Origin: a virus
DNA: 27,790 nt
Reading direction: 5' to 3' (one strand)
Virus record (IMG/VR): IMGVR_UViG_3300021373_002725
Location: 1 to 27,790 of that record
Notes under the pieces: model-generated
Databases searched by the model: none
What the model was told of the DNA's origin: nothing
The model's input: the letters and a program-made list of their open reading frames with translations, nothing else
Shown here: positions 2,144-10,952 of the stretch, piece after piece
Numbering within the stretch: the first letter of the stretch is position 1
Layout: each line of letters begins with the position of its first letter
Translations under genes and position numbers: made by a program

Positions 2144-2512
2144 TCAGAAGTTGTACTTCACACCCACTTTTGTTCCGTAGCTGGTGTCAGCACCATCAAC
2201 ACCGCCGGCAAAGCTGATTTCGCCGTAGAGGTTGAGGTTCTCAGAAGCATTAACACCAATGCCGACCTTGCCCGTAGGAACGGTTTCAGTTGGGCCATTG
2301 TCAATGGAAATGATGCCAGCGCCACCTTGTGCATACCAGCTAGCAGATTTACCGATGCTGCCTTCGTAACCCAGATGCAGATCTGTCGCGGTTCCTGCAT
2401 AATTTGAGCCAGAGAAACCTGAATTGGCTTCCACGTTGGCGTAGGGGCCAGCAATTGCACCAGCAGGTGCCAGGGCAGCTGCAGCAGCGAAGGCAAGAGT
2501 GGTTTTAATCAT
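2144..2512 (-). CDS. Secreted outer-membrane beta-barrel-like protein, 122 residues
   Basis: The N-terminus is a clear signal peptide (MIKTTLAFAAAAALAPAGAIAG, cleavage likely after AIA near residue 21). The rest consists of alternating, glycine-rich amphipathic strands and ends in KYNF, a terminal aromatic residue typical of outer-membrane barrels. I recall homologues in many marine T4-like cyanophages, sometimes labelled porin or outer-membrane protein. At about 100 mature residues it could form a small barrel alone or oligomerise. It is the only non-endonuclease gene on the minus strand, with its own terminator at 2091-2132. The ATG at 2512 is chosen over an upstream in-frame start near 2671 because the signal peptide begins there. 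Confidence 0.85.
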   Translation of the reverse strand: MIKTTLAFAAAAALAPAGAIAGPYANVEANSGFSGSNYAGTATDLHLGYEGSIGKSASWYAQGGAGIISIDNGPTETVPTGKVGIGVNASENLNLYGEISFAGGVDGADTSYGTKVGVKYNF

Positions 2513-2576
2513 TGTAAACTCAAGAAAGGGACTAACGCGAAGATTGCTCGCATAATCAATATACCTAGACAGACCG

Positions 2577-2586
2577 GAATACTGGG
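2577..2586 (+). promoter_or_regulatory. Recurrent gene-start motif (GGAATACTGG)
   Basis: Nine of ten positions fit GGMADACTAG. It lies in the divergent gap between the beta-barrel gene and the rightward gene, 40 bases before the ATG at 2617. Confidence 0.4.
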
Positions 2587-2616
2587 GTACCATTTGGGAC
2601 AGTAATACGAGTGGGC

Positions 2617-2751
2617 ATGACCAAGCAGCGGAAGAAACTTTTGAAACTAATGGAAAAGGCTGCGAAATCAATTAGCAATGAAGAATCTAAAGAAATTATT
2701 AAGAAATTAAAAAGAGCAGGCAGGAAATATGGCCAATGTTCGGAAATCTAA
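2617..2751 (+). CDS. Hypothetical basic helical protein, 44 residues
   Basis: The product is a lysine-rich peptide predicted to be almost entirely helical (KKLLKLMEKAAKSI, then ESKEIIKKLKRAGRKYG). No family recognised. It reads into the structural operon, since the next start is 19 bases after its stop. Alternative starts are not obvious; only weak ribosome-binding sequence (GTGGG) precedes the ATG. Confidence 0.55.
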   Translation: MTKQRKKLLKLMEKAAKSISNEESKEIIKKLKRAGRKYGQCSEI

Positions 2752-2769: not shown

Positions 2770-3270
2770 ATGGCTAGTCCGTTACTGGCATATTTTAACG
2801 GGCGGATCAAAGCCACGACGCAAAACACTGTAACGATTACTAATGGCCGTCCAGTTAAGTCTGGTGGCACGGAATACGTCGTCAAGTGTTATATAAAAAG
2901 AATTCAATATACCGGCGTAACCAGTGGATCTAAGCCATTGCCATTGGCATCACAGCTAGAAGGAAGGATGCTTCCCGGTGCCAGCGGCGATCAGTTTTAC
3001 TATCGAGGCTATGCCCTTCAGAAAGCCCCTCTAGGGGCCTACAACTGGCTAGGAGACCTAAGTGGTCTTACCTTCACAAACATCACGGCACAGGAGCTGT
3101 TCCTGCTGCCTGGTAGCGAAGTTGAGTTCAAGCTGGGAAACGATCCAACAATGCAAGCCATTGTTCAACGTTCCAGCGGAGTATTTGGTGGTGATGGGAT
3201 TGATGAAATTATTTACCCAGCCATCGGTGGTGTTGAGATTCAGCTGACAGGTTCTGATATTCAAAACTAA
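2770..3270 (+). CDS. Probable head-tail connector or head-closure protein, 166 residues
   Basis: The protein has no motif I can name with confidence. It is beta-rich, without membrane segments, and contains a central aromatic loop (GDQFYYRGYAL) and a C-terminal stretch GGVEIQLTGSDIQN. It is coupled to the next gene, an HK97-gp10-like tail-completion protein, by a TAATG overlap, which places it at the stopper or connector position of a siphovirus neck operon. ATG 2770 is preferred to GTG 2764 because the 14 bases before it (2753-2766) are repeated before the start of the 21575 gene at almost the same distance. A minor structural role of another kind is possible. Confidence 0.6.
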   Translation: MASPLLAYFNGRIKATTQNTVTITNGRPVKSGGTEYVVKCYIKRIQYTGVTSGSKPLPLASQLEGRMLPGASGDQFYYRGYALQKAPLGAYNWLGDLSGLTFTNITAQELFLLPGSEVEFKLGNDPTMQAIVQRSSGVFGGDGIDEIIYPAIGGVEIQLTGSDIQN

Positions 3271-3827
3271 TGCCGAGAAAGCAAGTAAAATCCAAAGGAG
3301 CAGTAGTATTAAAAAATTTAATTAAGTCAATGAATGACTTAGAAAGAGAGAACGGCAATATCAAAGGTGTTATTAAGTTAAAATCATCAGCAGACTTTAC
3401 TGACTACAGAACGCTTACTACTAAATTTCCAGATGCTGCCAAGGTCGCGCATGGGAAGGCACTAGCCATTGTTGCTAATGAGCTATATATTGCTTTTGGC
3501 TTGGCTATGGAAGCACCTGTTTGGCAATGGGATTTTGGCGATGGAGATATTATTGATACCGGCGACCTGCGGGATTCGCTAAATATTGTAGTTACACCAG
3601 AAGGTCTTCAAGTTATTTACACCGAAGAATATGCTGCTTATGTTTACTATGGGGCTTACATTAATCCATACGGAAATCCAAATGTCAAGATCTACATGCC
3701 GCCAAGGCCATGGATCAAGGCTGTATTAATGGGTGGAGGCCCCGTTGAGAAATTTGATCTGACAGGAACCTATAGACGTAATTTTGAAGTATTCATGAAG
3801 CAAGAATTACCTAATTTAAAATTCTGA
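3270..3827 (+). CDS. HK97 gp10-like tail completion / neck protein, 185 residues
   Basis: The central block carries the characteristic order of this family: DTGDLRDSL (an arginine-containing loop before a strand), then EYAAYVYYGAY, then PPRPWI near residue 145. Family members join the head to the tail or complete the tail at its head-proximal end. The N-terminal 60 residues are lysine-rich and probably helical. The start codon overlaps the upstream stop (TAATG), giving translational coupling. Length is in the usual range for the family. Exact equivalence to lambda Z or to HK97 gp10 is not determined. Confidence 0.75.
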   Translation: MPRKQVKSKGAVVLKNLIKSMNDLERENGNIKGVIKLKSSADFTDYRTLTTKFPDAAKVAHGKALAIVANELYIAFGLAMEAPVWQWDFGDGDIIDTGDLRDSLNIVVTPEGLQVIYTEEYAAYVYYGAYINPYGNPNVKIYMPPRPWIKAVLMGGGPVEKFDLTGTYRRNFEVFMKQELPNLKF

Positions 3828-3857: not shown

Positions 3858-4412
3858 ATGGCAGTTTTACCTTTTGTTATTCAACCGAAAAAAAATACCG
3901 AAATTATTAAAATTGGTGACGAACAGATTGGTGTTTTTGAAATTGAACGCAAAGGCTACCTGACTGTTGCAGAAAAATCCTTTGTTGAAAATGTCACGCA
4001 AGGATCTGACGGAGTTTCTTCTTTAGTACTTCTGGCAAATAAAGTAGCAGCAGCTCATAAGACGACCCCAGAAAAAGCATACATGGCTATTACGGAGGCT
4101 ATGTCTGGCAACAACAAGTCTAAGTTAGCTCAAGTTATTTCAAGTGATTATTCAGAGGAATTATCTTTTGCAACCACGCGAATGGCAGAATCCATGCAGC
4201 GCCGTCAGATCGCAGCAGCAACTATCTTGTTGCAGACTAGAATTAATCATGAGTGGAGTATCCAAGACACCTTGGAACTCGACCCAATGCTTGTGCAACA
4301 ATTGACAGATCTTTACGACAGAGAAGAACAGCGTGAATCGATTGAGCCTGTAAGCAAAGAAGAAGAGGCTAAGCATATTGTGGGAAAGTCACCAGAGGAG
4401 AGTGGGGCATAA
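3858..4412 (+). CDS. Tail assembly chaperone, G-like protein, 184 residues
   Basis: This is the zero-frame product of a lambda G/GT-type pair. The N-terminus (FVIQPKKNTEIIKIGDEQIG) and an alpha-helical body with a glutamate-rich end (REEQRESIEPVSKEEEAKH) are consistent with tail chaperones, which bind the tape measure protein and recruit tube subunits. The strongest evidence is the slippery heptamer G GGA AAG in the correct frame eight codons before the stop, with a long open -1 frame continuing to 5017. It lies between neck genes and the tail tube and tape measure genes. Starting at ATG 3858, it has no Shine-Dalgarno sequence. Confidence 0.8.
   Translation: MAVLPFVIQPKKNTEIIKIGDEQIGVFEIERKGYLTVAEKSFVENVTQGSDGVSSLVLLANKVAAAHKTTPEKAYMAITEAMSGNNKSKLAQVISSDYSEELSFATTRMAESMQRRQIAAATILLQTRINHEWSIQDTLELDPMLVQQLTDLYDREEQRESIEPVSKEEEAKHIVGKSPEESGA
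4382..4388 (+). other. Programmed -1 ribosomal frameshift site (G GGA AAG)
   Basis: The zero frame reads GTG GGA AAG TCA, so GGGAAAG is phased exactly as the lambda G/GT slippery sequence. After slippage the -1 frame reads on without a stop to 5017. Twelve bases downstream a hairpin can form between AGTGGGG (4401-4407) and CCCCGTT (4416-4422), including G-T pairs, with the zero-frame stop TAA in its loop; it may stimulate slippage. Confidence 0.85.
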
Positions 4413-5017
4413 TTACCCCGTTTGAGACAATATTTTGGGATCTGAAGTCGTTATATCCTGGTGATAATGAATTTAGTTTTGACAATTATAGTTCTTTGCC
4501 TTACGAATATGTAATCGATGCATATCAAAATGGATCACGACAACGACAATCTTATTTACATCAGTTAGAGGCACCTGTCTCACTGCTCAGTGCTTTATTT
4601 GCTAATTCAAATAGAGACGCTAAAAAGCAAAAAGTTCCACACAAGATGGAAGACTTTTTCTTGTACCAGCCAGTTGATGACAGAAATACTCCGACAGGAG
4701 TTTACGGTGCCGCTGCAATGGAACTCATAGAGCAACAGTTATTCCCTCGATGGGCGTATTGCTTTTATAAGGATCTTAAAAATTCTTCAACAGGTAACCC
4801 TCCTAACTTGTTAGGTCTGATTCATGAAAAAGCTATAATACTAGGACCAGAAATTACAGAAAATTCCGTCAAGGGAATGTTGATTATGGAGGACGTAGTA
4901 TCTGAGCAGACGATCGAAATGGAATCGACTCTCGGTGGCATTATTAAAGTAACAATGCCAAAGGCGACTATACGTTACAGTGCAAAAGAAGGCGTTGAAG
5001 TTCCTATTGCTGCATGA
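4388..5017 (+). CDS. T-like extension of the tail chaperone, made as a -1 frameshift fusion
   Basis: This frame is open from the slippery site and has no ATG in its first part. The coding signal continues well upstream of the TTG at 4496: codons from about 4409 read IITPFETIFWDLKSLYPG, a sensible protein sequence. The fusion (3858-4388 read in zero frame, then -1 from 4388) would be 386 residues, 177 from the G part and 209 from the T part. In siphoviruses the long form coats the tape measure and is needed in small amounts relative to G. The 3' end overlaps the convergent HNH gene by 14 bases. Calling it as a free 173-residue protein from TTG 4496 would be wrong in my reading. Confidence 0.8.
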   Translation, partial: VTRGEWGIITPFETIFWDLKSLYPGDNEFSFDNYSSLPYEYVIDAYQNGSRQRQSYLHQLEAPVSLLSALFANSNRDAKKQKVPHKMEDFFLYQPVDDRNTPTGVYGAAAMELIEQQLFPRWAYCFYKDLKNSSTGNPPNLLGLIHEKAIILGPEITENSVKGMLIMEDVVSEQTIEMESTLGGIIKVTMPKATIRYSAKEGVEVPIAA

Positions 5018-5423
5018 TTGCCGCCGAGAAAGACTGACAATCAAAGACATCTCCTGAAATAGGAATGTTCTCTTTCTCAGCTTCCATCCATGCCCTAATC
5101 CTGTATTCCCGCTCCATTGAGTATGAGTTTTGATTGCGGAACCATTCAGCCCATTCTTGGCTTCCCTTTGAATGATTGCATTTCTTGCAGGCAGGGATAC
5201 AATTGCTTGTCCTATCTTCACCACCCCTTGCTCGAGGCTTGACGTGATCAAGAGTCAGTGAGGCATCGTCAATTGGTGGATTTCCGCAGTAAGCGCAGCA
5301 GTAACCCCAAGCCTCTTTGATCGATTGTCGCCAAAGGTGTTTCGCTTCTTTTCTTGTCATTGCATCTAGATTGAAAAGGTAGTCGTGGATCCTTGGTCGG
5401 ATCGGAAAATCCTTTTTAATCAT
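5004..5423 (-). CDS. HNH homing-type endonuclease, 139 residues
   Basis: The motif set is complete: a first zinc knuckle CAYC (residues 43-46), LTLDHVKPRARGG with the catalytic Asp-His at 59-60, Asn at 74, and a second knuckle CKKCN at 79-83. Such freestanding HNH enzymes cut DNA and spread by recombination between phages; others act in packaging, but those lie next to terminase, which is not here. It is on the strand opposite its neighbours and its 3' end overlaps the chaperone gene by 14 bases, which suggests insertion at the chaperone-tail terminator junction. ATG 5423 is taken; an internal ATG at residue 22 is an alternative start that keeps the whole domain. Confidence 0.9.
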   Translation of the reverse strand: MIKKDFPIRPRIHDYLFNLDAMTRKEAKHLWRQSIKEAWGYCCAYCGNPPIDDASLTLDHVKPRARGGEDRTSNCIPACKKCNHSKGSQEWAEWFRNQNSYSMEREYRIRAWMEAEKENIPISGDVFDCQSFSAAIMQQ

Positions 5424-6083: not shown

Positions 6084-6104
6084 TGGGGTGAATCCCCCAT
6101 TTTT
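6084..6104 (+). terminator. Rho-independent terminator before the tail tube gene
   Basis: TGGGG (6084-6088) pairs with CCCCA (6095-6099) around a six-base loop, followed by five T. It separates the tail-terminator gene from the tail tube gene and argues against translation starting at 6088. Confidence 0.65.
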
Positions 6105-6135
6105 GCTCAGTTTTCAGCATTCTGGAAATTCACCC

Positions 6136-6783
6136 ATGGCTAATTATTCTGCAGCCTTTGGATATAAGGTTTACTTACTTCCTTTGGCTTCTGCTCAAAC
6201 CGACCTAACTTTTAACGGAATCACGACTGGTACTGGCCTTAGCAGTGCTAGTACTGGATTCCTTAAAACTGACAGCTCAACCCTTGGTGACGAAGGCAAC
6301 CTTGCTGCCGACAATGACACCATTGCGTATGATACTGCGACCGGTATTTTTACGGTCGAAAGTCAAGCTTATGCAATGGACGGCACCACCGCCACTGACA
6401 AGCCTTTCAAATTGCTTGGCTTGACTAATGCCTCTCTAGAGACTGATACCTCTAGCGAAGATGTTATCACCTATGACCGCACAACTCGTGGTTATAACAC
6501 TAACATTGCTACGACTAAATCGTTCAGCATCTCACTAGAAGGTGTTGCTGACTTTAAGAGTGCAGCCTACCAAGTCTTGCGTTTGGCTGAAGCTAACACT
6601 GTTAACAACAGCTTGCGCGTTAAGTTTGCTCGTATCGGACCAACTGGTACTGACGAGACAATTTATGGTTACGGCACTCTCGAAGGCTACTCTGAATCAG
6701 TGGAAGCTGGCTCTGTGGTTTCCTTCAGTGCAACGCTGAATGGCTACGGCCCATATAACTTAGATATCGACGCCAACGCTTGA
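6136..6783 (+). CDS. Major tail tube protein, 215 residues
   Basis: The gene lies directly before the tape measure gene, between two terminators. The product is rich in threonine, serine and short beta strands (for example GNLAADNDTIAYDTATG and ITYDRTTRGYNTNIATTKSF), as expected for the stacked-ring tube subunit of siphovirus tails. Arginine is encoded only by CGT/CGC, unlike the AGA-rich tape measure gene next door, which signals high expression. The ATG at 6136 (MANYSAAFGYK) is chosen; an upstream in-frame start near 6088 would lie inside the terminator hairpin. No Ig-like C-terminal domain is seen. Confidence 0.8.
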   Translation: MANYSAAFGYKVYLLPLASAQTDLTFNGITTGTGLSSASTGFLKTDSSTLGDEGNLAADNDTIAYDTATGIFTVESQAYAMDGTTATDKPFKLLGLTNASLETDTSSEDVITYDRTTRGYNTNIATTKSFSISLEGVADFKSAAYQVLRLAEANTVNNSLRVKFARIGPTGTDETIYGYGTLEGYSESVEAGSVVSFSATLNGYGPYNLDIDANA

Positions 6784-6866: not shown

Positions 6867-9800
6867 ATGCTGACGGTACCAGTAAAGTTTGATGTAAACG
6901 CTGGTGAACTGCAGGCAGCTTTAAAGCAATTACAGGACGGAAGTCAAAAGGCTCTTCAAGAGATCCTTGACTTCAATGGAAAGAAAATAAATATCGAATA
7001 CAATTTTACTAGCAATGGATCAGTCATTGCAAAAGAATTAAGTGAACAAGAAGTTGCTATAAGAAAAGCAAATAAAGCATATCTACAGTCAGTTGGCGGT
7101 CAACAAAATTCTGTTGCAAGAACAAAAAAACAAATTCAAGTATTTAAAAAGCTTAGAGACGAGCTAAATCAAAACAACCCTAAGTGGAAGCAATACTCAG
7201 CTGCTGTAAAAATTGCAGAAGATAAACTAAAGAAATTACAAGGAGCAACTGCTGGCAGCCTGGACGCAATCAGGAATCAGCGAAGTGAATTAGTTAGAAT
7301 GCGTAATGCTGTAGCAATGAATTCACCTGAATTCAAAAAGCTAACATTAGAGATCAAGAAATTAGATGATAGGTTTACCCGAACTACACCTAAGGCTAAA
7401 AGTTTTTTCGGCGTTCTAGGTAGAATTGCTGTTGCACAGACTGCCTTTGCTGCCGTTACAGGTACATTTAGGTCTGCGGCTAATGCATTTGGAGCCTTTA
7501 CAGCTAGAGCAAAAGAGCTTGAGGCTTTTAATCTAGCAATCAGAAACGTAGGATTTACCCAAGCAGAAACTAATCGAATTTTTAAGCAAGCAGAAACCAC
7601 AGCGAATCGTCTTGGTGCTCCTCTACAGCAAGTTGAGAAGAGTTATAAAAGGATGATCCCGGCATTGAAGGCTGTAGGCACAAGTGCTGCTGACTCTGAT
7701 AAGTTCATTGCTGCTATCAGCGCAAGAAGCCAAACACTTGGATTAAATACAGAGCAATCAGGCAGATTGCTAGAGGCATTCGCTCAGGTACTGAGTAAAG
7801 GGAAGCTCCAAGCAGAAGAACTTAATCAACAAATCTCTGAACTTGACGGTGCATTCAGAACTCAATTTGCAGATGCATTAGGCGTAAGTAGTGCAGCATT
7901 AAATGAGTTAATATCTGACAGTAAAATTACTGCTGATGTATTTGTCGAGACTGTTAATAAAATGCAAAATGGCGTAGATGCGCTAGCAAAAAGAATTGAA
8001 AATGGTACAGCTACAATTCAACAGTTACAAAATGCAGCCTCTAATATTGAAACTAAAAACCTTGAAAGCATTGCTAAAACTATTGAACCAGCAATTAAGG
8101 CGTTTTTAGAAATCCGCTTGGCAGTTGCTGAATTTATCAAAGAATTTAAACAGACCAAAACCTTTGATTTTCTTGCTACTACATTTAATCAAATAGCAAA
8201 ATCAGCACGAACTTTAATTGATAATACTTTAAAATTAGTTTTAGCAATAAGCCAATTATTAGCCCCGATTACTGGATTGTTGGATGGTATTTTGAGGCTT
8301 GATGCTAATTTTGGCGGGTTGATTGGGGTTTTAGCGCATGTAGCAGCTGGTTTCCTTGTATTTAAAGCAGCAATTATAGGTACTATGTTTATTGGCAAGC
8401 TTAAAGTTCTTGTCACACTTACAACAGTCGCACTTAAAAGCCTTGCCACTTCAGGCAAGCTATCTGCTGTAGGCATGAATATGTCGACTGCAAGTGCAAA
8501 GAGGCTAGCGGTAGGATTAAGAGCACTTAAAAAAGCTGTACCATTTCTTGCTATTGCAGCAGGTATTGGGTTAATCGTCAACGCATTTAGGGCTAGCGCG
8601 AAGGGCGCTGCCGAGGTTAAGTCAGCATACAGTAGCTCTTTTGATAGCTTAAGTGAATCACTAGAAGAAGTCAGTACTGCAGCCAAAAAGGCTCCGCCTA
8701 CCCTTGCTGAAGCGACACAAAGCGTTGAACAAGTAGCAGATTCAGCTAGCTTCGCGGGCGGCGCATGGACATTACTTGGTACAGGCATTATTGCGGTTGG
8801 CGTAGCTGCAGCTACTGCCGCTACAGGTGGACTTGCACTGGTGGCTATTGCGGCTACAACAGCTGCTGCAGCGGCGGCTGCTGGAGCTAAAGCTAATGAA
8901 GAATTGCAAAAGTCTGGTAGGGGTAGGCAGCTTATTAAGTCAACTAAAGAATACAATGCTTTAGTTTCTCTGGCTGAAAGCAAAGCAAAAGGGCTCGGCG
9001 CTGCGATTGGGGCGACTGATTTTAGCAATTTTGCTTCAGGATCTGAAAATTTAGAGCAATTAGGGATATTGTATTCAGCTACCAGCAAAAATATTAAAGA
9101 GCGAATTGCTACAAATAAACAATTAATTGCTACAGAAAGGGATCGAGAAAAAGTAAATGAAGCTGTAATCACTAAATTAGAAGCTGAGAATGTACAGCTT
9201 GCAGAAAAAGGACGGCTGGCCGCTGCATCTGAAAAAGCCATACAAGATGAAACTGCAGCAAGAATTAGAAATGGCGATGCAAATGCAACGGCAGCAGCGT
9301 CTGCAGAGCAATTACAGAAAGCACAAAAACAGCTAAACGAAGAAATTAATACTGATTTAATTGAAGCACAGACAGAAGCAATCAAGAAGTATGGCAAAGA
9401 AGCTAATGCAGCATCTTTGATTGGTGCATCTAACATTGCAGCTGAAGTCGTAGCCTCTGAACAAAGAACAAAGAACGCAAAAGAGCACCTTGCGGTACTT
9501 GCGAAAAGAGGTAAACTTAATGAAGAAGAAATTGCTTTACAAAGGCAACTAACTAATGTAGTTGCAACAGAAACCCAAAAACAAGCTCAATTGGGAATTG
9601 ATGCTCGTAATGCAGTCATCGACGCATTCAAGGCGGGCATCGCTGAGGTCGACGGCCAAGTAGATATAATCCTACAAAGTTCAAGCAGACTGAAAGGTGC
9701 TTTTGATGGCATCAGCGGTACATTCGTTTCTGGATTACAAGCGGCAAATGGATTAATTGATGAAATTGCAAGCCGAGAACTTAAGGGTCTTGAGGTTGGA

Positions 9801-10952
9801 AGCGCAAAGAGAAAGCAAATTATTGAAAGACAACTTAGGGCACAAGCTCTTACTAATGAAATTGAAAATCGCATTGCTGTCTTAAAACTTACGACACAAA
9901 ATAAAATTGCTACAAGTCAAGCTAGAATTGAGCAAATCAGATTGAGAAATTTAGCCAAAATTGCACAGGCTGAAGGCAAGTCTGGATTAGCAAAAGCTTA
10001 CAGCGAAGCAGCCACTCAGCAAGGATTAATCATTCAAGGATTAGGTCAACAATTTGTGATAGAAAAGGAACTGCTTGGAATTACAAAAGCAACAAAAGAT
10101 CAAAAGCTAATCAGTAAAGGTATAGATGAAAAGCTTTCAACAAGTGCTCAAGGCGTAGCAAATAAGCTTGATGTGCAACTTGTCAGTCTTAAAGAGGCAG
10201 AGAAGAAGCGAAAGAATTTAATTAAGCTTGCTGGCGATTACGGTACTGCTATAGCCGAAGCTGCTACTGATAGCCAAGACACTGCCGAAGCACTACAGGG
10301 TACATCTTTAGAGAATGGCGTCGAGGGAGCTGAAGAAATAACAAAAGCGTTGGACAATGCCCAAGGTGCAGGCGAAGGCTTGGAATCTGTAATGGATGCA
10401 GTTAAGGACACTATGTCTGGCGGAGCAGATGAAGCCAATAAAATCGTTGGCTTCCTGAGGAAATCAGTAAGCGAAGCTAATAAGTTGCAACGAATTGTCC
10501 TTGAAAGTGGCTCTCGTCGCGCTATGGGCGGTCCTGTTACTAGTGGTAAGCAATATACAGTTAATGATGGCGGAGGCAGGGAAGGATTCTTAAGCAATTC
10601 CGGCAAGTTTAGTATGCTGCCTGCTGCAAGAAATATTAAATGGACTGCTCCTACTTCTGGTACGGTCATTCCTGCAAACCTTGTTAATGATTTTATCTCG
10701 GCAAGTTCCAGCGAAAAGATTCAATCTGCCTCATCTGGTATTAGGCCCAAACAAAACCCAGCTGCAAATACAACTTCAGACGGAGTTTCTGGCAACCTAG
10801 TCAAGCAAATGACCGCTGCTTTAACTGGTTCTGGCGGCAATCAACGCATTACAAACAACGTGACGATTCAAAGCCAGCAACCTGTCACAGATGCGTCGCA
10901 GATCATGACGAATGTGGCCCGCATGCGGCTCCGTAACGGCCGGAGGATCTAG
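6867..10952 (+). CDS. Tail tape measure protein, 1361 residues
   Basis: This is the longest complete gene of the tail module. It is overwhelmingly helical with long charged coiled coils (roughly residues 60-200 and 730-1150). The block from about residue 205 to 390 (AETTANRLGAPLQQVEKSY, then GKLQAEELNQQISELDGAF) matches the conserved phage tape measure domain. Hydrophobic segments lie near residues 455-515, 563-580 and 633-675, the last an alanine-rich stretch, as usual for proteins that pass through the host membrane. Tape measure proteins set tail length; at about 0.15 nm per residue the tail would be near 200 nm (inference). Codons are A/T-rich with many AGA arginines, unlike the tube gene. 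Confidence 0.95.
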   Translation: MLTVPVKFDVNAGELQAALKQLQDGSQKALQEILDFNGKKINIEYNFTSNGSVIAKELSEQEVAIRKANKAYLQSVGGQQNSVARTKKQIQVFKKLRDELNQNNPKWKQYSAAVKIAEDKLKKLQGATAGSLDAIRNQRSELVRMRNAVAMNSPEFKKLTLEIKKLDDRFTRTTPKAKSFFGVLGRIAVAQTAFAAVTGTFRSAANAFGAFTARAKELEAFNLAIRNVGFTQAETNRIFKQAETTANRLGAPLQQVEKSYKRMIPALKAVGTSAADSDKFIAAISARSQTLGLNTEQSGRLLEAFAQVLSKGKLQAEELNQQISELDGAFRTQFADALGVSSAALNELISDSKITADVFVETVNKMQNGVDALAKRIENGTATIQQLQNAASNIETKNLESIAKTIEPAIKAFLEIRLAVAEFIKEFKQTKTFDFLATTFNQIAKSARTLIDNTLKLVLAISQLLAPITGLLDGILRLDANFGGLIGVLAHVAAGFLVFKAAIIGTMFIGKLKVLVTLTTVALKSLATSGKLSAVGMNMSTASAKRLAVGLRALKKAVPFLAIAAGIGLIVNAFRASAKGAAEVKSAYSSSFDSLSESLEEVSTAAKKAPPTLAEATQSVEQVADSASFAGGAWTLLGTGIIAVGVAAATAATGGLALVAIAATTAAAAAAAGAKANEELQKSGRGRQLIKSTKEYNALVSLAESKAKGLGAAIGATDFSNFASGSENLEQLGILYSATSKNIKERIATNKQLIATERDREKVNEAVITKLEAENVQLAEKGRLAAASEKAIQDETAARIRNGDANATAAASAEQLQKAQKQLNEEINTDLIEAQTEAIKKYGKEANAASLIGASNIAAEVVASEQRTKNAKEHLAVLAKRGKLNEEEIALQRQLTNVVATETQKQAQLGIDARNAVIDAFKAGIAEVDGQVDIILQSSSRLKGAFDGISGTFVSGLQAANGLIDEIASRELKGLEVGSAKRKQIIERQLRAQALTNEIENRIAVLKLTTQNKIATSQARIEQIRLRNLAKIAQAEGKSGLAKAYSEAATQQGLIIQGLGQQFVIEKELLGITKATKDQKLISKGIDEKLSTSAQGVANKLDVQLVSLKEAEKKRKNLIKLAGDYGTAIAEAATDSQDTAEALQGTSLENGVEGAEEITKALDNAQGAGEGLESVMDAVKDTMSGGADEANKIVGFLRKSVSEANKLQRIVLESGSRRAMGGPVTSGKQYTVNDGGGREGFLSNSGKFSMLPAARNIKWTAPTSGTVIPANLVNDFISASSSEKIQSASSGIRPKQNPAANTTSDGVSGNLVKQMTAALTGSGGNQRITNNVTIQSQQPVTDASQIMTNVARMRLRNGRRI

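Follow-up and report, generated by a model that had tools for sequence, protein, structure and literature searches.

A conserved slippery heptamer points to programmed −1 frameshifting between two tail-module genes of cyanosiphoviruses

Introduction

Two overlapping reading frames in the genome of a marine cyanophage-like virus raise the question of how the second frame is expressed: from a start codon of its own, or as an extension of the first frame through a programmed change of reading frame. The locus lies in a stretch of DNA which we will henceforth call the window, and which comprises a whole virus record from IMG/VR (27,790 bases). In phage lambda, a −1 frameshift producing gpG and gpGT was reportedly described by Levin in 1993. 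The lambda gpG/gpGT frameshift is reviewed in PMC5009743, according to which the heptamers G_GGA_AAG and A_AAA_AAG are both highly shift-prone in E. coli. A preliminary description of the window, made from its sequence, had proposed a lambda-type frameshift at this locus, together with a downstream hairpin and a role of the two products as tail-assembly chaperones. Here we assess these proposals by comparing the window with its relatives and with named phage systems.

Results

Sequence anatomy of the junction

The zero-frame gene (3858–4412, plus strand; henceforth G) encodes a gpG-like protein of 184 amino acids, recognised by its open reading frame, a profile and homologues with 31–37% identity in Synechococcus phages S-CBS2 and S-CRES1-3. 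Near its 3' end the zero frame reads GTG GGA AAG TCA, placing GGGAAAG at 4382–4388 (plus strand) in the phase G_GGA_AAG, exactly as had been claimed. The zero-frame stop codon TAA (4410–4412, plus strand) follows 21 nt after the heptamer, compared with 15 nt in lambda. The −1 frame, bounded upstream by a TAA at 4370, is open from 4373 to 5017 and contains no ATG, GTG or TTG until the TTG at 4496–4498 (plus strand), which a gene caller would take as the start of a separate gene and which corresponds to residue 37 of the −1 product. The part read after the shift (4388–5017, plus strand; henceforth T) is a gpT-like extension of 209 amino acids, homologous to its S-CBS2 counterpart from residue 1 onwards and matching phrog_34388 (3.1e-34). 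The predicted junction is HIVGK followed by VTRGEWG, in agreement with the reported VTRGEW start and the open frame to 5017.

We propose the following mechanism. Most ribosomes would translate 3858–4412 into gpG. In a minority of them, two tRNAs would re-pair on G_GGA_AAG (4382–4388) to GGG AAA, and these shifted ribosomes would re-enter at GTC 4388 and run to 5017, yielding a GT fusion of 386 amino acids whose first 177 residues are common to gpG. The lambda record carries the identical heptamer, G_GGA_AAG, in its G gene, which confirms the earlier statement on this point. The two systems are alike in heptamer phase, in the −1 direction, in the position of the site close to where the first gene ends and in having a tape measure gene downstream, whereas the annotated lambda T has 144 amino acids against 209 for the T part of the window.

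The heptamer is retained in all relatives

Viral contigs (scanned twice), prokaryote genomes (scanned once) and the annotated phages together yielded 87 loci (including the window), which reduced to 67 distinct junctions of 180 bases. The closest named relatives at the locus were Synechococcus phages S-CBS2 and S-CRES1-3, with Prochlorococcus phage PSS2 more distant; in all of these the heptamer, the frame and most of the gene order are kept at a T identity of 31–40%, although a G homologue was not found in PSS2 by blast.

All 87 loci had both reading frames intact, exactly one in-frame X_XXY_YYZ heptamer in the overlap, and the T frame always at −1 relative to G. The heptamer was GGGAAAG in 42 distinct junctions, AAAAAAG in 22 and GGGAAAA in 3. 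Given that the site was kept while identity of the T-part protein to the window fell to as low as 29%, the heptamer has persisted longer than most of the sequence around it. A GGGAAA or AAAAAA heptamer occurred within the last 63 bases of 66 out of 67 G ends, as opposed to 1 out of 370 control open reading frame ends from the same loci; the single exception was PSS2, where it lies 117 bases before the G stop codon. The PSS2 locus (L019:2947-3073) also has a dual-open overlap of 187 nt, which greatly exceeds that of most other relatives. Furthermore, the glycine codon within the site was GGA in all 45 GGG-type junctions, while elsewhere in both genes GGA made up 280 of 1243 glycine codons (22.5%). 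According to the preliminary description, homologues that had lost the heptamer despite conservation of both frames would speak against the frameshift, and no such case was found among the 87 loci. Considering that the site is kept in every relative found, the sequence comparison argues that the frameshift is real, though of a well-known kind.

Genomic context and the putative chaperone role

The genes downstream of the pair, namely those for the tail tube protein (6088–6783, plus strand; PF06199, 2.8e-6; phrog_38654, 1.1e-74) and the tape measure protein (6867–10952, plus strand; phrog_2335, 7.5e-19; tblastn match to the S-CBS2 tape measure), identify the locus as a tail module. The gene order in the window is G-T, an HNH endonuclease gene on the other strand, one further gene, tube and tape measure. 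The HNH gene (5004–5423, minus strand; PF01844, 2.7e-13) is convergent with T and overlaps its 3' end; this position is also filled in S-CBS2 and S-CRES1-3, though not in PSS2. Before the tail module lies a small protein gene (2144–2671, minus strand) assigned to phrog_417, a family of unknown function (1.2e-42), whose product has a signal-peptide-like N-terminus and whose true start is probably near 2513.

In lambda-like phages the pair typically follows the tube gene and directly precedes the tape measure gene. Lambda itself has the order G-T-H, with the pair immediately before the tape measure gene H. By contrast, the pair at 3858–5017 lies upstream of the tube gene rather than between the tube (6088) and tape measure (6867) genes of the window, and is thus separated from the latter. 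The 83 bases between the tube and tape measure genes contain no open reading frame of at least 60 amino acids.

Searches for similarity to known proteins gave few leads. Alignment to lambda G and T with hhalign revealed no sequence similarity, Pfam returned nothing above the cut-off for either protein, and a PDB profile search gave nothing useful. The folds were predicted, from alignments restricted to the window and loci on contigs, with pLDDT values of 81.5 and 84.8, and their comparison with PDB was uninformative, with G matching ion-channel helices and T staying below Z 3.2; YqbN (3klu) scored Z 4.8, not above unrelated entries. The viral Foldseek matches were A0A346A5Z9 and A0A510E8E6 for G, and A0A346A5Z8 and A0A510E8J5 for T. 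These accessions pair up and are near-consecutive, as expected of neighbouring genes, and they provide the best support for the chaperone reading.

On the lambda model, gpG and gpGT would be tail-assembly chaperones uniting the tape measure and tail tube proteins. This proposal of the preliminary description held in part: the pair does belong to a tail module that includes tube and tape measure genes, but it lacks similarity to lambda G and T and its place in the gene order differs. There is a small but appreciable chance that the frameshift is real and the pair serves another role in tail or neck assembly, as the position upstream of the tube gene, the adjoining gene resembling neck or tail-completion genes (3270–3827) and the lack of a sequence match to a known chaperone, or of a convincing one in fold, might suggest. 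Such a role sits less well with the finding of no other candidate pair between the tube and tape measure genes and with the annotation of T in relatives as a tail assembly protein; it is also a known rule that long-tailed phages keep the G/GT frameshift even where sequence similarity is low (PMC5009743). A lambda-like tail chaperone appears to be the natural reading of the pair.

T lacks a conserved start of its own

An alternative account of expression is that T is a separate gene, coupled to G and translated from TTG 4496 or a near-cognate codon, with the heptamer being incidental. GenBank annotators have made this choice: S-CBS2, S-CRES1, S-CRES2, S-CRES3 and PSS2 are each recorded with two separate genes and an internal T start, located at residues 40, 69, 69, 40 and 48 of the −1 product, respectively. 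The frameshift was thus unannotated in all five records inspected (out of eight matching), as anticipated in the preliminary description, which had foreseen two gene calls and a false internal start. The alignment of phrog_34388 to T, which begins only at residue 43, could likewise be taken in favour of a separate gene; it would however be explained if the family had been built from truncated annotations.

The T frame itself points the other way. Across the relatives compared, its first ATG, GTG or TTG is scattered between residues 2 and 87, and no start codon is conserved. In one close relative (L021) the T protein is identical to that of the window, yet the TTG at residue 37 is missing. Moreover, the 36 codons preceding TTG 4496 are conserved as protein, with a pN/pS of 0.34 for residues 1–36 versus 0.36 for the next 150 codons (residues 37–186), meaning that purifying selection constrains the stretch before the TTG to the same degree as the remainder of T and that, as had been claimed, the −1 frame reads as protein before any start. 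Together with the retention of the heptamer at 87 out of 87 loci, this makes a separately initiated T highly improbable, and we judge the TTG to be spurious. Slippage of RNA polymerase instead of the ribosome is less probable still. AAAAAAG, a run on which polymerase could slip, is present at a third of the junctions, but the window and most relatives have GGGAAAG, with no homopolymer longer than three, in the same frame and place, a pattern that fits tandem tRNA re-pairing instead.

Considering the unbroken conservation of the heptamer and the lack of a conserved T start, we infer that a programmed −1 ribosomal frameshift of the lambda type very probably joins G and T. It is a known kind of frameshift, identified here in a lineage of cyanosiphoviruses that are recorded with two separate genes; the literature we searched, with limited coverage of subscription journals, contained no report of this frameshift in cyanosiphoviruses.

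A stop codon abutting the heptamer

A distinctive trait of the lineage is a zero-frame stop codon that abuts the heptamer. The distance from heptamer to stop was 0 in 37 of the 67 junctions (for example L024:2495-2504 and L016:2995-3004) and 3 in nine others. S-CBS2, S-CRES1 and S-CRES2 differ from the window in this way, having AAAAAAG directly followed by TAA. A published tool reports mean stop distances of 26 and 36 nt for two sets of tail chaperones (PMC10885494). The 37 abutting stops comprised 29 TAA, 8 TAG and no TGA codons, and TGA ended the T gene in 17 of the 67 cases, neither set of counts being phylogenetically independent.

On the T tree the abutting state required 14 changes, of which at least 8 gains or losses were forced by well-supported branches, and the heptamer was never lost across these gains and losses. 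The window neighbours abutting-stop forms on the tree and has TCA where those have TAA; this codon, which follows AAG, differs from TAA by a single base, and valine is retained in the −1 frame. In some bacterial dnaX variants the stop codon of the shorter product also follows the shift site immediately (PMC5009743). These variants resemble the 37 junctions in having a slippery site followed by an immediate zero-frame stop, but they concern a cellular polymerase gene, and the stop of the window itself is 21 nt away. It is conceivable, though we consider it unlikely, that the shift is coupled to termination in this lineage, with slow release-factor action, and not a 3' RNA structure, setting the ratio of G to GT.

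Candidate stimulators

The hairpin noted in the preliminary description is present, with the 8 bases at 4400–4407 pairing with 4416–4423 (plus strand), 11 bases from the heptamer, and it does enclose the zero-frame stop TAA in its loop. Its folding energy is within the range of shuffled sequences (z = −1.1 over 50 nt, −0.5 over 80 nt and +0.5 in a further stretch), and covariation counts for the named pairs were not above those of shuffles, leaving a stimulatory role unsupported. As RNAalifold also found no consensus structure over 22 close relatives, we rejected the hairpin as a conserved stimulator; it may still act as an individual one in the window alone. A hairpin enclosing the stop is not a family rule, because in most relatives the stop abuts the heptamer.

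Strong predicted hairpins within about 65 nt downstream of the heptamer (z about −3 to −5) were confined to some distant relatives, namely L060, L061, L063, L067, L083, L090, L094, L098 and L099; no downstream hairpin of this strength was seen in the window, which suggests that stimulators differ between branches. The family mean z was −0.98 compared with −0.32 in control windows (p = 0.02, uncorrected for relatedness). An Rfam search gave no match.

Another candidate is a GAGG at 4365–4368 (plus strand), a possible internal Shine-Dalgarno-like stimulator located 13 nt before the heptamer, and hence within the spacing of 9–14 nt reported for −1 shifts (PMC5009743). Among 46 clusters, GAGG, AGGA or GGAG started 8–12 nt before the heptamer in 15, versus 7.4 expected (p = 0.002, uncorrected, with four bins), and was not enriched at the 9–14 nt spacing (10 versus 8.3).

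Discussion

The comparison amends how a widespread tail module of aquatic phages is annotated, in that its second protein would be about 40 residues longer than recorded and made as a fusion with the first. Such annotation also appears to have left at least one public protein family, phrog_34388, truncated. Finally, the 67 junctions constitute a natural data set in which the slippery site, the distance to the stop codon and the downstream structure vary, while the putative frameshift stays.
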